DNA from: Sporohalobacter salinus
GTDB lineage: Bacteria > Bacillota > Halanaerobiia > Halobacteroidales > Acetohalobiaceae
Reading direction: 5' to 3'
Length of the DNA: 64,000 bases
Assembly: GCF_016908635.1 (NCBI RefSeq)
Contig: NZ_JAFBEG010000003.1
Span: 62,001-126,000, forward strand
In this document: positions 3,099 to 17,258 of the stretch, one piece after another
Layout: every line of letters starts with the position of its first letter
Numbering within the stretch: the first letter of the stretch is position 1
Notes under the pieces: model-generated
What the model saw: the letters and a program-made list of their open reading frames with translations, nothing else
What the model was told of the DNA's origin: nothing
Database searches by the model: none
Program-made: the position numbers and the translations under genes

Positions 3099-4664
3099 AT
3101 GGTTCAGAGTTCATTAACAGAGTCTATTACTAATAAAGATGATTTTACAGTAACTTGGGAGTTAGTTCCAGGTCGAGGAGCAAAAGAATCAAAGCAGGAA
3201 AAAATTTTTATTAATGCAGAAAAAGCTGCTAACAGTGACAAAGTAGATGGGGTAACTCTAACTGAAAATCCCGGTGGGAATCCTGCTATTTCGGCAGAAT
3301 ATTTAGGGATGAGAGTTAAAGAATTAGGGATTGATCCAATGGCCCATTTTACATGTAAAGATAAGAATCGAAATCAGATGGAAAGTTTTCTATATTCTTT
3401 AGAACGCGAGGGTGTATCAAATATTTTAGTAATGACTGGAGATTATCCAGGAGGAGGCTATAAAGGAAGTTCTAAACCAGTCTATGATTTAGATCCTACA
3501 CAGATTTTGGATTTAATTACTGATTTAAATGAGGGTTTGGAGTATGAAAATCATTTTGGGCGAACAATAGGCTTAAAAGAAACACATTTTTTTCCGGGAG
3601 TAGTAGTTTCTCCATTTAAAAGATTAGAGTCAGAGCAGATGGTTCAGTATTATAAGTTGAAGAAAAAAATTGAAAAAGGAGCTAAATTTATTATTTCGCA
3701 GCTTGGTTATGATGTTCGTAAATTCCATGAATTAATTCAATTTATAAAGATGAATGATTGGGATATTCCAGTTATCGGAAATATTTTCGTTTTATCCTAC
3801 GGTATAGGGCGGGCTATGAATGCTAACAGAATTCCCGGTTGTGTAGTAACTGATGATCTAGTAGAACAACTGGCTAGGGAGAAAAAAGCAGATGATAATG
3901 GAAAACATACACGTTTAATGAGAGCAGCTAAAATGTATGCTTTTATGAAAGGAATGGGATATGATGGAGTACATTTAGGTGGGCATGGTTTAGACTATGA
4001 AGAGTTAGAGTTCATTATAGAAAAAGGAGAAGAGCTAACCCCTAATTGGCGTGACTATATACATGAGTTTGATTTTCCAATTAAAGATGGTTTTTATTAT
4101 TTTGAAAAAGATGAAGAAACTGGCTTAAATACTGATAGACCTGCTGAAAGAAAGTCTAAACCGAAAAAAGAAACTGTCTATAGTATGTTTAGAATTGGAC
4201 ATAGTTTAATTTTTGACCCAGATGGATCTTTCTTTGGTCCAATGCAATCAATTTGTAGTTTGACAGATGACGGAGTTTTAGAAGACCCCTTCGACTTTAT
4301 GGAACGGGTAATTAAGACTATTACTAATGAATGTCAGGGATGTGGAGATTGTGCATTAACTGATTTAGCCTATTTATGTCCAATGTCACAATGTCCTAAA
4401 AATCAGCGGAATGGTGCTTGTGGTGGTAGTAAAGATGGTTGGTGTGAGATATATCCTAACGAGCAGAAATGTCTTTATGTGAGGGTTTATAATCGATTGA
4501 AGGCTTATGAAGAAGAAGAAAAGTTAAGAGATAACTGGGTTCCACCGGTTGATTGGGATTTAACCCATAAATCATCTTGGCTTAATTACTTTTTGGGTAG
4601 AGATCATACGGCTAATAAGATCGGGATTACTCTTCCAGATAACTCAGAAAACAAAGAAGCTTAG
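3099..4664 (+). CDS. metF: Methylenetetrahydrofolate reductase fused to MTHFR_C Cys-rich domain
   Basis: Residues about 15-330 match the MetF TIM-barrel family, which reduces 5,10-methylene-THF to 5-methyl-THF for methionine synthesis or the methyl branch of the Wood-Ljungdahl pathway. From about residue 385 a Cys-rich segment follows (CQGCGDC, YLCPMSQC, GACGG, WCEIYP, KCLY). This is the MTHFR_C/MetV-like domain, a separate zinc-binding partner subunit in some acetogens. It follows a SAM-I riboswitch and a strong AAGGAGGAG site, so it is repressed when SAM is plentiful. A hairpin terminator follows; it looks monocistronic. Confidence 0.9.
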   Translation: MVQSSLTESITNKDDFTVTWELVPGRGAKESKQEKIFINAEKAANSDKVDGVTLTENPGGNPAISAEYLGMRVKELGIDPMAHFTCKDKNRNQMESFLYSLEREGVSNILVMTGDYPGGGYKGSSKPVYDLDPTQILDLITDLNEGLEYENHFGRTIGLKETHFFPGVVVSPFKRLESEQMVQYYKLKKKIEKGAKFIISQLGYDVRKFHELIQFIKMNDWDIPVIGNIFVLSYGIGRAMNANRIPGCVVTDDLVEQLAREKKADDNGKHTRLMRAAKMYAFMKGMGYDGVHLGGHGLDYEELEFIIEKGEELTPNWRDYIHEFDFPIKDGFYYFEKDEETGLNTDRPAERKSKPKKETVYSMFRIGHSLIFDPDGSFFGPMQSICSLTDDGVLEDPFDFMERVIKTITNECQGCGDCALTDLAYLCPMSQCPKNQRNGACGGSKDGWCEIYPNEQKCLYVRVYNRLKAYEEEEKLRDNWVPPVDWDLTHKSSWLNYFLGRDHTANKIGITLPDNSENKEA

Positions 4665-4679
4665 AATTATTTTACGGAT

Positions 4680-4725
4680 AAAGCTCTATTCTGATATAAA
4701 CTTACCATTCAGGATAGAGCTTTTA
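4680..4725 (+). terminator. Rho-independent terminator after metF
   Basis: AAAGCTCTATTCTGA pairs with TCAGGATAGAGCTTT (one mismatch or bulge) around an AT-rich loop and is followed by a T-rich tract. Confidence 0.88.
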
Positions 4726-4756
4726 TTATATTTTATCTAGTTTTAATGGATTTTTC

Positions 4757-4785
4757 TTGAGAGATGGTAAGGATTATTATATCAT
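4757..4785 (+). promoter_or_regulatory. Possible sigma-A promoter of nadD operon
   Basis: TTGAGA at 4757-4762 and TATCAT at 4780-4785 have a 17-base spacer. They lie in the gap between the metF terminator and nadD. The hexamers deviate from consensus, so the call is moderate. Confidence 0.5.
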
Positions 4786-4824
4786 TTATATTAGAGGTAT
4801 TAATAGTTATAGGGGATGAGATTG

Positions 4825-5451
4825 ATGCTAGATAATTTAATAGAAGAAGACATTAATCGATTGGGGATTATGGGGGGGACTTTTGATCCAATTCATAACG
4901 GCCATTTAGTTACTGCTGAAGCAGCTGCTTATCAATATGATCTTGATAAAGTTGTTTTTGTACCTTCAGCTAATCCTCCTCATAAAACAGAACAGGAGAT
5001 TACTGATGCTGAAGATCGGTATATTATGATTATTTTAGCTACTATGAATAATTCTAAGTTTGGTGTTTCTCGTTTAGAAATAGAAAGGGGAGGTTTATCT
5101 TATACTATAGATACAGTCCAGACTTTTAAAAAGGCATTAGATAATGTTGAATTGTATTTTATTACCGGGGCTGATGCTATTTTAGAGATATTTACTTGGA
5201 GGAAAGCTGAGAAACTATTTCAGGAATGTAAATTCATTGCTGCTACAAGACCAGGATATTCTCTATCTAAGTTACAAGGAGGAATTTATGAAGAATATAA
5301 AGATAAGATATTTCAATTAAAGATTCCTGGCTTAGCCATTTCTTCAACGGATATTCGAAAGAGAGTAAAAGCAGGAAGACCGATTAAGTATCAATTACCA
5401 AATACAGTAGAAGCTTATATTAAGCAGGGAAAGTTCTATCAAGAAAGATAA
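4825..5451 (+). CDS. nadD: Nicotinate-nucleotide adenylyltransferase
   Basis: NadD transfers AMP from ATP to nicotinate mononucleotide, giving deamido-NAD in NAD synthesis. The nucleotidyltransferase signature GGTFDPIHNGH lies near the N-terminus and the second motif ISSTDIR near the C-terminus. Start choice: ATG at 4825 sits 9 bases after the AGGGG site; an in-frame ATG at 4816 overlaps that site and is unlikely. About 208 aa, normal size. It heads the conserved nadD-yqeK-LCP-rsfS cluster, and yqeK follows after 11 bases. Confidence 0.95.
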   Translation: MLDNLIEEDINRLGIMGGTFDPIHNGHLVTAEAAAYQYDLDKVVFVPSANPPHKTEQEITDAEDRYIMIILATMNNSKFGVSRLEIERGGLSYTIDTVQTFKKALDNVELYFITGADAILEIFTWRKAEKLFQECKFIAATRPGYSLSKLQGGIYEEYKDKIFQLKIPGLAISSTDIRKRVKAGRPIKYQLPNTVEAYIKQGKFYQER

Positions 5452-14687: not shown

Positions 14688-15542
14688 TTAATTTTTTGGA
14701 AAGTAACAAATAAATTCTGTTCCATAATTTGGTTCACTTTCTATTTCTAATCTTCCCTCTGCTTCTTCAACAAGTGATTTAACAATATATAGTCCGTAGC
14801 CTCGTTCGCCTCCTTTAGATGAAAAGCCGGCTTGGAGTATCTCTCCAATTAATTTGTCTTCAATTACCGGGCCGGTATTAAAGACTTTTAATATATATTC
14901 CTTATTTTTATTCTTTCCTTTAATTTCGATCTTACATTCTTCATTGAAGTCTTTAGTAGCATCTATTGCATTATCCACTAAGTTAGATACTATTCGGAAT
15001 ATCTTATTAAGAGGAAGCTTTATACTTTCAATTCCTTGATCAATCTGGTAGCTAAGATCTAGATCTTCTTTAATTGCTTTTTCTTTTTTAGGAATTAAAA
15101 TTGAATCTAAAATAGTATCAGTAACTTCGGTTTCATCATACTTTAGATTAGCTAAATCTTGACTTAAGGATTTAATGTACTTTTTGGCCTTTTTATTTTT
15201 GTCAAGTTGAGCCATGCCGTAAAGTGTTTGAAGGTGATTAGCAAAATCATGTTTCTGGCTTCTTAAATTTCTAATTAATTTTTCCTTTTCTTCTAATTTA
15301 ATTTCTTGTAGTTTAAATTCCATTTCACGATTGATTAATTTAAATACTTCTTTGATCATAATGATTGATAAAATTGATAAAATTGATAAACAGATAGTCA
15401 CAAGCAAGACAGCATTTGCTAATAATGGCTGTGATTTAAAATAACCAAATTGGATTTTATTATTAAATAATAACAGTAAAAATGATTGGGTTAATAAGAT
15501 AATTATTATATATTTTACTTTTGAATTACTTTCCCATTTCAT
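14688..15542 (-). CDS. GHKL sensor histidine kinase, AgrC-like kinase half
   Basis: This is a membrane histidine kinase of about 284 aa. Two hydrophobic helices (about 10-26 and 43-63) are followed by a coiled segment, a Spo0B-like H-box with His98 (QKHDFANHL), an N-box (NLVDNAIDAT) and a G-box (GERGYGLYIVK). This arrangement is typical of the kinase part of AgrC-type peptide receptors. ATG at 15542 is preferred because GGTG lies 7 bases upstream; earlier TTG/GTG codons overlap that site. It overlaps the 3' end of the membrane gene at 15526-16047 by 17 bases. Together they resemble an AgrC split in two. No LytTR response regulator gene is in the window. Confidence 0.82.
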   Translation of the reverse strand: MKWESNSKVKYIIIILLTQSFLLLLFNNKIQFGYFKSQPLLANAVLLVTICLSILSILSIIMIKEVFKLINREMEFKLQEIKLEEKEKLIRNLRSQKHDFANHLQTLYGMAQLDKNKKAKKYIKSLSQDLANLKYDETEVTDTILDSILIPKKEKAIKEDLDLSYQIDQGIESIKLPLNKIFRIVSNLVDNAIDATKDFNEECKIEIKGKNKNKEYILKVFNTGPVIEDKLIGEILQAGFSSKGGERGYGLYIVKSLVEEAEGRLEIESEPNYGTEFICYFPKN

Positions 15543-16047
15543 TTTTATCACCAACTGAGTTAAAAATTCTATTTAGCGATTCAGATTTAAAAAAGCTAAT
15601 ATCAAGATAGTAAATACTAATCCCACTAATTATTAGTGGAAGTTTAGATAAATAAAAAGCAATTGAAACCCAAATTAGGTTATTACTATTTATGAGTTCG
15701 TGAATATTATCAAAAATATTAGTATAATGAAAAATTATTGGAAAGAATAGTATTTCTCCTAATAATAAAAAAATGAAGCCTAACATTGAAGCTATTGTTG
15801 CTAAACTCCAGCTAATATCAACAAAAAATTTAAATAATACAATTAGGAGAAAGCATAAAATAGCTATATGATAACCATATAGATCCAATATATTTCTTAT
15901 TAGTATTACACAAAGGGTATAGATAGTGATGATTTGAATATATTTTTCAATTGACAGTTTAATATCAATTGAACCTAAACCAACATAGATTAATAAAAAA
16001 TTTTCAAAAATAATGTAAAAAAGAAGTTTCCATATTGATAAATTCAT
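15526..16047 (-). CDS. Multispan membrane protein, candidate AgrC-like sensor half
   Basis: The 173-aa protein is almost entirely hydrophobic, with about five predicted membrane helices and no catalytic motif. It starts with a segment resembling the first helix of AgrC-type receptors (FENFLLIYVGLGS). Its size matches the membrane sensor part of an AgrC receptor. It is cotranscribed and overlaps the kinase gene at 14688-15542, so I infer that the two act as one receptor. The start at 16047 has a purine-rich GGAGGGGAAGG stretch just upstream. It is divergent from agrB. Function is inferred from context; the family name is uncertain. Confidence 0.6.
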   Translation of the reverse strand: MNLSIWKLLFYIIFENFLLIYVGLGSIDIKLSIEKYIQIITIYTLCVILIRNILDLYGYHIAILCFLLIVLFKFFVDISWSLATIASMLGFIFLLLGEILFFPIIFHYTNIFDNIHELINSNNLIWVSIAFYLSKLPLIISGISIYYLDISFFKSESLNRIFNSVGDKNEMGK

Positions 16048-16405: not shown

Positions 16406-16433
16406 TTGATAGCCGATATATTTTACGTAAAAA
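16406..16433 (+). promoter_or_regulatory. Possible agrBD promoter with embedded repeat
   Basis: TTGATA (16406-16411) and the weak -10 TAAAAA (16428-16433) are 16 bases apart. The right copy of the 12-nt repeat, GCCGATATATTT (16412-16423), fills most of the spacer, a usual place for a regulator site. The -10 is poor, so the promoter call is tentative. Confidence 0.4.
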
Positions 16434-16481
16434 ATAATTTTCATGATAAGTTTTCAAAAATGAATGAAAGGAGGTAAAAGT

Positions 16482-17093
16482 ATGGAGAGGAAAACAGGAG
16501 TAGAATTATTGAGTAAAAAATTGGTTCAGATTTTATTCCAAAACGTTTCAACAGAGGAAAAGGAGGTATTAATGTATGGAGCTACAGTTTTATTATCAAC
16601 TTTAGGAGCTTATTTAGTACTTATAGTTGTTTCTTCATTATTTAATGTTACATTTTTAACTGTAACAGCAGCAGTAACTGCTTCCTTATTAAGAATTTTT
16701 TCTGGAGGAGTTCATTCTTCTGAATTTAAATATTGTGTTTTATCAGGGACAATTGTTTTTATTACAATGGGGTTAATTGCAAATAATTTTGGTTATAAAA
16801 TTGAAAATATAAATATGTTAGTTTTGATTGTTTTGGTAATTGGTTCCTTTATTATTTACTTTTATGCTCCTGCAGAGATTAAAGAAAAACCGATTACTAG
16901 CCACAAAAAGAAGGCAAGATTTAAAATATATTCTTTTATTGTATTTAGTGTCTTACTAGTATTTTATTATATCATCAATTTAAAGACAAATAATGATCAA
17001 TTTGTGTTAGCAGGATTGTTAGGTGCTTTATGGCAGTTGTTTACCCTTACACCTCTAGCATATAAATTATTCAATCGAGAATATAATATTTGA
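16482..17093 (+). CDS. agrB: AgrB-family accessory gene regulator protease
   Basis: AgrB is the integral-membrane peptidase that trims the AgrD propeptide and forms its (thio)lactone ring. The 203-aa protein has about five to six membrane helices and the catalytic pair His78 and Cys85 in the segment GGVHSSEFKYC, at the positions known for staphylococcal AgrB. The start is ATG 16482 because AAAGGAGG lies 7 bases upstream; the longer in-frame ATG at 16464 lies upstream of this site. The small peptide gene follows after 48 bases, as in agrBD operons. Confidence 0.92.
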   Translation: MERKTGVELLSKKLVQILFQNVSTEEKEVLMYGATVLLSTLGAYLVLIVVSSLFNVTFLTVTAAVTASLLRIFSGGVHSSEFKYCVLSGTIVFITMGLIANNFGYKIENINMLVLIVLVIGSFIIYFYAPAEIKEKPITSHKKKARFKIYSFIVFSVLLVFYYIINLKTNNDQFVLAGLLGALWQLFTLTPLAYKLFNREYNI

Positions 17094-17141: not shown

Positions 17142-17258
17142 ATGAAAAAAATAGTTGCTAAATTATTAAAGAAAGCAACAGAAGCTAATGTAGCATCAGT
17201 AAGTGGGTCTTTTGGTTACCAACCAGAAGTTCCAGAAGCAGTAAAGAAAGATGAATAA
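17142..17258 (+). CDS. agrD: AgrD-like autoinducer propeptide without cysteine
   Basis: A 38-aa ORF directly after agrB with a perfect AAAGGAGGTGAG site. It has the three AgrD parts: an amphipathic Lys-rich N-terminal helix (about 1-15), a small core (ASVSGSFGY, about 18-26) and an acidic C-terminal tail (QPEVPEAVKKDE). The QPxxP tail resembles clostridial AgrD proteins. The core lacks the usual ring-forming Cys; Ser19, Ser21 and Ser23 are the only nucleophile candidates, which would give a lactone and not a thiolactone. Function rests on position, size and tail pattern. Confidence 0.85.
   Translation: MKKIVAKLLKKATEANVASVSGSFGYQPEVPEAVKKDE

Follow-up and report, generated by a model that had tools for sequence, protein, structure and literature searches.

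The window, the 64,000-nucleotide stretch of Sporohalobacter salinus DNA analysed here, most probably contains an agr-type peptide quorum-sensing locus whose signal would be a five-residue lactone, SGSFG (Ser21 to Gly25 of the AgrD propeptide), cut before Tyr26 and sensed by a two-protein AgrC. The Ser-type AgrD lies in a functional-looking locus, and a lactone is its likely product. From the gene identities, the register and conservation of the peptide, the codon pattern and the split receptor, we infer the following route of cyclisation (including ring size), secretion and sensing. AgrB, through Cys85 and His78, would cut AgrD between Gly25 and Tyr26 and keep the resulting C-terminus attached to itself as a thioester, which the hydroxyl of Ser21, at the position where most AgrDs have Cys, would attack to give the five-residue lactone. 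A second protease would trim the AgrD head (two matches to CAAX-type proteases, which might do so, were found, but the family is too general to assign one), and the peptide would leave the cell with few or no exocyclic residues, e.g. SV or ASV. The lactone would then be sensed by a five-helix protein (15526-16047) that controls a kinase (14688-15542).

A cysteine-free AgrD next to an intact AgrB

The agrD gene occupies positions 17142..17258 of the + strand and encodes a 38-aa propeptide, MKKIVAKLLKKATEANVASVSGSFGYQPEVPEAVKKDE, with zero Cys. A strong ribosome site, GGAGGTGA, precedes its ATG. The peptide matches NCBIfam TIGR04223 (quorum_AgrD; E 2.9e-10, 40 bits against a cut-off of 19), whereas a Pfam profile search with the same 38 residues gave no match. 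Its layout is that of an AgrD: a Lys-rich amphipathic head (residues 1-18, amphipathicity being judged by eye), a core with the C/S site (19-25) and an acidic tail (26-38) that, in the sequence and in the alignment of the order, shows the charged P-x-x-P type. An AgrD-like propeptide without Cys, encoded by a 38-codon gene with a good ribosome site directly 3' of agrB, had been described in an earlier note on this DNA; the TIGR04223 match, the Cys-free translation and the sequence itself bear out this description.

Directly 5' of agrD lies an intact agrB (16482..17093, + strand), the sole AgrB gene of the genome, encoding a membrane peptidase/cyclase of 203 aa (PF04647, 131.7 bits, E 2.5e-38 in the Pfam profile search). 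The gene probably starts at ATG 16482 and not at the listed ORF start of 16464, since the latter ATG falls inside agrB's own ribosome site. Both active-site residues, His78 and Cys85, are found in GGVHSSEFKYC, and the corresponding GxHx6C motif, present here, is also seen in 117 of the 119 AgrBs surveyed. AgrB is carried by 12 of the 13 genomes of the order, in 15 genes, with an AgrD-like ORF 3' of each. These genes came from the genome search; a related-locus search among the genome contigs yielded no AgrB relative. As an AgrD-like ORF follows all 14 other AgrB genes of the order, agrD is not a chance ORF, and judged by its sequence 17142-17258 is a real AgrD gene.

A second AgrB/AgrD type occurs in two genomes of the order (L063:6552-9561 and L072:5799-8792), with a Cys AgrD that has a hydrophobic head. 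These agr loci adjoin cyclic-di-GMP-type enzymes, with a GGDEF plus HD-domain protein on the 3' side, and have a protein of ~154 aa without Pfam match on the 5' side.

Predicted ring closure through Ser21

Column statistics were taken from the 13 AgrDs of the main type in the order, which have the common frame [C/S]-x4-Y-[Q/E]-P-x-x-P. Ser21 aligns with the ring-closing Cys of other AgrDs, the arrangement looked for in a serine-lactone autoinducing peptide (AIP). Of the 13 peptides, 11 have Ser and two have Cys at the closing site (entropy 0.62). Variability within the peptide is highest at positions 2, 3 and 4 behind this site (entropies 2.7-3.0), and in the tail both Pro are invariant (13/13) and the Tyr is found in 12/13. 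A conserved closer, a variable ring and a conserved tail are the pattern expected of an AIP in such an alignment. Ring closure here is thus predicted to go very probably through Ser instead of the usual Cys, and Ser is, as a rule, the predicted ring-closing residue of this bacterial order.

The predicted ring, Ser21-Gly25, is encoded at 17202..17216 (+), from its Cys register and hypervariable ring columns, with the Ser21 codon, AGT, at 17202-17204; the C-terminal tail that AgrB is expected to remove, YQPEVPEAVKKDE, follows at 17217..17255 (+). In Clostridium thermocellum, the product of AgrD Clo1313_2818 is a lactone from Ser25 to Phe29, with the cut before Tyr30; it was confirmed by LC-MS/MS and is inactive in its linear form (PMC5322536). 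The earlier note had ended the ring at Tyr26 or Gln27; because of this precedent, and in keeping with the register and the conserved tail, we moved its end to Gly25, so that Tyr26 would be the first tail residue. A six-residue ring from Ser21 to Tyr26 (SGSFGY) would resemble AIP rings reported for some clostridia (PMC12312760), but we consider it improbable, as Tyr26 with the following Gln-Pro belongs to the conserved post-cut motif (12/13) and the corresponding Tyr of C. thermocellum lies outside the ring.

As to the closing residue, Ser19, Ser21 and Ser23 had all been put forward. Ser21 stands, on the Cys register and the 11 Ser and two Cys in its column; the columns of the other two are not Ser/Cys-like. 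Both Ser19 and Ser23 are near the cut, and the Ser19 column is Ser in 9/13, but the two orthologues with Cys at position 21 have Ala there, the Ser23 column is hypervariable with Ser in 1/13, and it is position 21 that stands in register with the Cys of other AgrDs, which leaves closure by either of them barely credible. Very improbable, too, is a peptide that is not cyclised, whether as a decayed AgrD or as a linear product whose amphipathic head is active. The absence of Cys would suit such a peptide, as would the toxin-like properties reported for S. aureus N-AgrD (PMC10482373), yet agrB is intact, the ribosome site and the tail are conserved, and Ser is kept at the closing site in 10 of the 12 AgrB-bearing genomes of the order though the ring residues vary. 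A Cys in related genomes combined with an inactivating change in this copy had been named in advance as an argument against a serine lactone; the relatives mostly have Ser and no inactivating change was seen, so this argument does not apply to the predicted Ser21-Gly25 ring.

Cysteine, serine and threonine at the ring-closing site

For the phylum, we used TIGR04223 matches from 398 genomes together with fetched loci. The ring-closing site of 119 AgrB-linked AgrDs is Cys in 79, Ser in 37 and Thr in three, in a count that admits only these residues; in the unrestricted list, no further residue is convincing. The non-redundant set from outside the order has 87 C, 26 S and one T (Ser 26/114), and these phylum fractions are rough because the sample is tilted to high-scoring AgrDs. 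Ser AgrDs are accordingly common in the phylum sample and, with the chemically confirmed lactone of C. thermocellum, make it an overstatement that serine lactones are known from a few staphylococci, or that the window peptide represents a distinct signal class, as the earlier note had it.

The codons at this site are unusual. Pooled, the ring-site Ser is AGY in 31/37 as against 106/300 for the other Ser of the same peptides, while the AGY share of Ser codons in the window genes is 39%. AGT/AGC is used at the ring site in 10/11 cases in the order (other Ser of the same peptides 13/38, Fisher p 0.0013) and in 21/26 outside it (93/262, p 1e-5), and, in the pooled set, a Ser codon (AGY or TCY) one base from a Cys codon in 36/37 (200/300, p 3e-5), p values that are too small because the sequences are related, just as the codon and conservation counts are not independent. 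By parsimony on the AgrB tree, no fewer than 16 switches between Cys and a hydroxyl residue have to be assumed (shuffled mean 33); well-supported branches demand seven of these, and both of the order's Cys orthologues fall within the Ser clade. Our reading of codons and tree is a repeated Cys/Ser interchange at one functional site, and the codon pattern fits single-base switches from Cys.

The three AgrDs with Thr at the site, ATGFWSYQPEVP, ATGNWSYQPEVP and ATGSNGYQPEVP, are found in L078 (beside AgrB 4555-5220), L188:1259-1405 and L207:2018-2140, each adjoining AgrB and a split AgrC; by the same alignment they would give threonine lactones.

A two-gene AgrC

Two genes on the - strand are divergent from agrBD. 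One (15526..16047) encodes a five-helix membrane protein of 173 aa (AlphaFold2 pLDDT 87), identified through its homologues as a separate AgrC N-terminal sensor half; the other (14688..15542) encodes a histidine kinase with SPOB_a and HATPase domains (PF02518/PF14689/PF14501), the AgrC C-terminal half, for which we prefer ATG 15542 over the TTG 15554 that begins the listed ORF. The kinase has two long N-terminal helices, predicted to be membrane helices, aligns with residues 136-397 of Staphylococcus AgrC in a profile match, and in a structure search matches, among others, 6e52 and 4bxi of S. aureus AgrC. The sensor half had no convincing match in the PDB (no Foldseek E <1; the top VIA hit, with Z 5.5, was a small helical domain). 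Elsewhere in the phylum both halves are fused in one ORF, adjoining AgrB in L199, L203, L204 and L209 and also in L202 and L205, and separate sensor ORFs are widespread there as well. Since the kinase aligns with AgrC from residue 136 and the fused homologues hold both halves, we regard the two ORFs as a split AgrC: a sensor membrane domain and an AgrC-homologous kinase are both present, but not in the single polypeptide of a classical AgrC, either here or in any of the 13 genomes of the order.

Sensor homologues occur in 13/13 genomes of the order, always encoded apart from the kinase, with one, two, three or four sensor genes per kinase and a permuted gene order. A frameshifted single AgrC was rejected, because no genome of the order has the halves joined and their order is sometimes permuted. 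In S. aureus, the AgrC fragment 134-430 is constitutively active alone (PMC3841183), and as this fragment matches the kinase half, it is plausible that the separate sensor controls a kinase that would otherwise be active. We put forward only tentatively, and as rather unlikely, a modular receptor in which one AgrC kinase is common to one to four separate sensors, which might let the cell detect, through alternative sensors, both its own Ser-lactone and peptides from other strains and pass the signal to a non-AgrA regulator.

Several loci depart from this arrangement. In G006 (L071:8017-10369), a 422-aa ORF interrupts the kinase gene, so that the receptor is probably broken, while the Ser AgrD and AgrB remain. 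G005 (L076:7215-8547) has no AgrB but retains sensor and kinase genes, with a gene for a LytTR regulator ~5 kb away, and is possibly a listener without a signal of its own. The genome of the window itself encodes a second kinase close to the AgrC kinase half (L217:1501-3000, E 2e-62), fused to a different membrane sensor.

Output and regulation

The locus has no linked LytTR response regulator AgrA, the remaining member of a complete agrBDCA, and must therefore work through a regulator whose gene lies elsewhere. A single LytTR protein is encoded in the window's genome, on a different contig and next to a probable LytS and CstA (names given by length and appearance), and no LytTR match was found in two agr-bearing genomes of the order (G003 and G010). 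Spo0A is present in 13/13 genomes of the order, which fits a spore former, and in clostridia Spo0A receives input from orphan kinases (PMC11210211); our data hold no tie of the window kinase to Spo0A. When the regions 5' of agrB were searched for Spo0A boxes across the order, one turned up against ~1 expected, leaving Spo0A control of agrB unsupported. Upstream of agrB at 16426..16445 (+) is a 20-bp near-palindrome, CGTAAAAAATAATTTTCATG / CRTRAAAAAWWATTTTCATG. Three genomes of the family (G000, G001 and G004) each contain a single match, always upstream of agrB and, in G004, as a perfect palindrome; the element may serve as an operator or as a 5' mRNA hairpin.

Comparison with known systems

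At least three lineages are already known to make Ser-lactone AIPs, and the window peptide adds scale and origin. The lactone chemistry predicted here is already known because C. thermocellum makes a Ser lactone, as do S. intermedius and E. faecalis (PMC3673130, PMC12312760). Searches based on thiol chemistry would presumably miss such signals. Ser AgrDs are not processed by S. aureus AgrB1 or AgrB2 (PMC10482373), a point against the predicted lactone, since a Ser substrate needs a matching AgrB. The less familiar part of the locus is the two-gene AgrC with its variable sensor number and no linked AgrA; searches of open-access papers on Halanaerobiales agr and split AgrC gave no relevant description, which is weak evidence of novelty.

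The closest parallel is C. thermocellum Clo1313_2818, likewise a Ser-closed five-residue lactone directly before Tyr, established by LC-MS/MS there and predicted here. That gene, however, lies apart from any agr operon, with AgrB and AgrC unassigned, whereas agrB, sensor and kinase are adjacent in the window, and the ring residues differ. In the AIP lactone of Staphylococcus intermedius/pseudintermedius, Ser also replaces Cys in a functional agr autoinducer, but the lineage and ring sequence are others and the AIP is a nonamer from an ordinary staphylococcal agr. Enterococcus faecalis makes GBAP, again a Ser lactone, via an AgrB homologue; its fsrBDCA system differs in a nine-residue ring (five residues being predicted here), in fsrD lying within fsrB and in having the FsrA regulator, where our locus has no linked one. 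With S. aureus agrBDCA, finally, the locus shares the AgrB active-site residues, the AgrD layout and an AgrC-like kinase, while the S. aureus system has a Cys thiolactone, a one-piece AgrC and the LytTR regulator AgrA in its operon.
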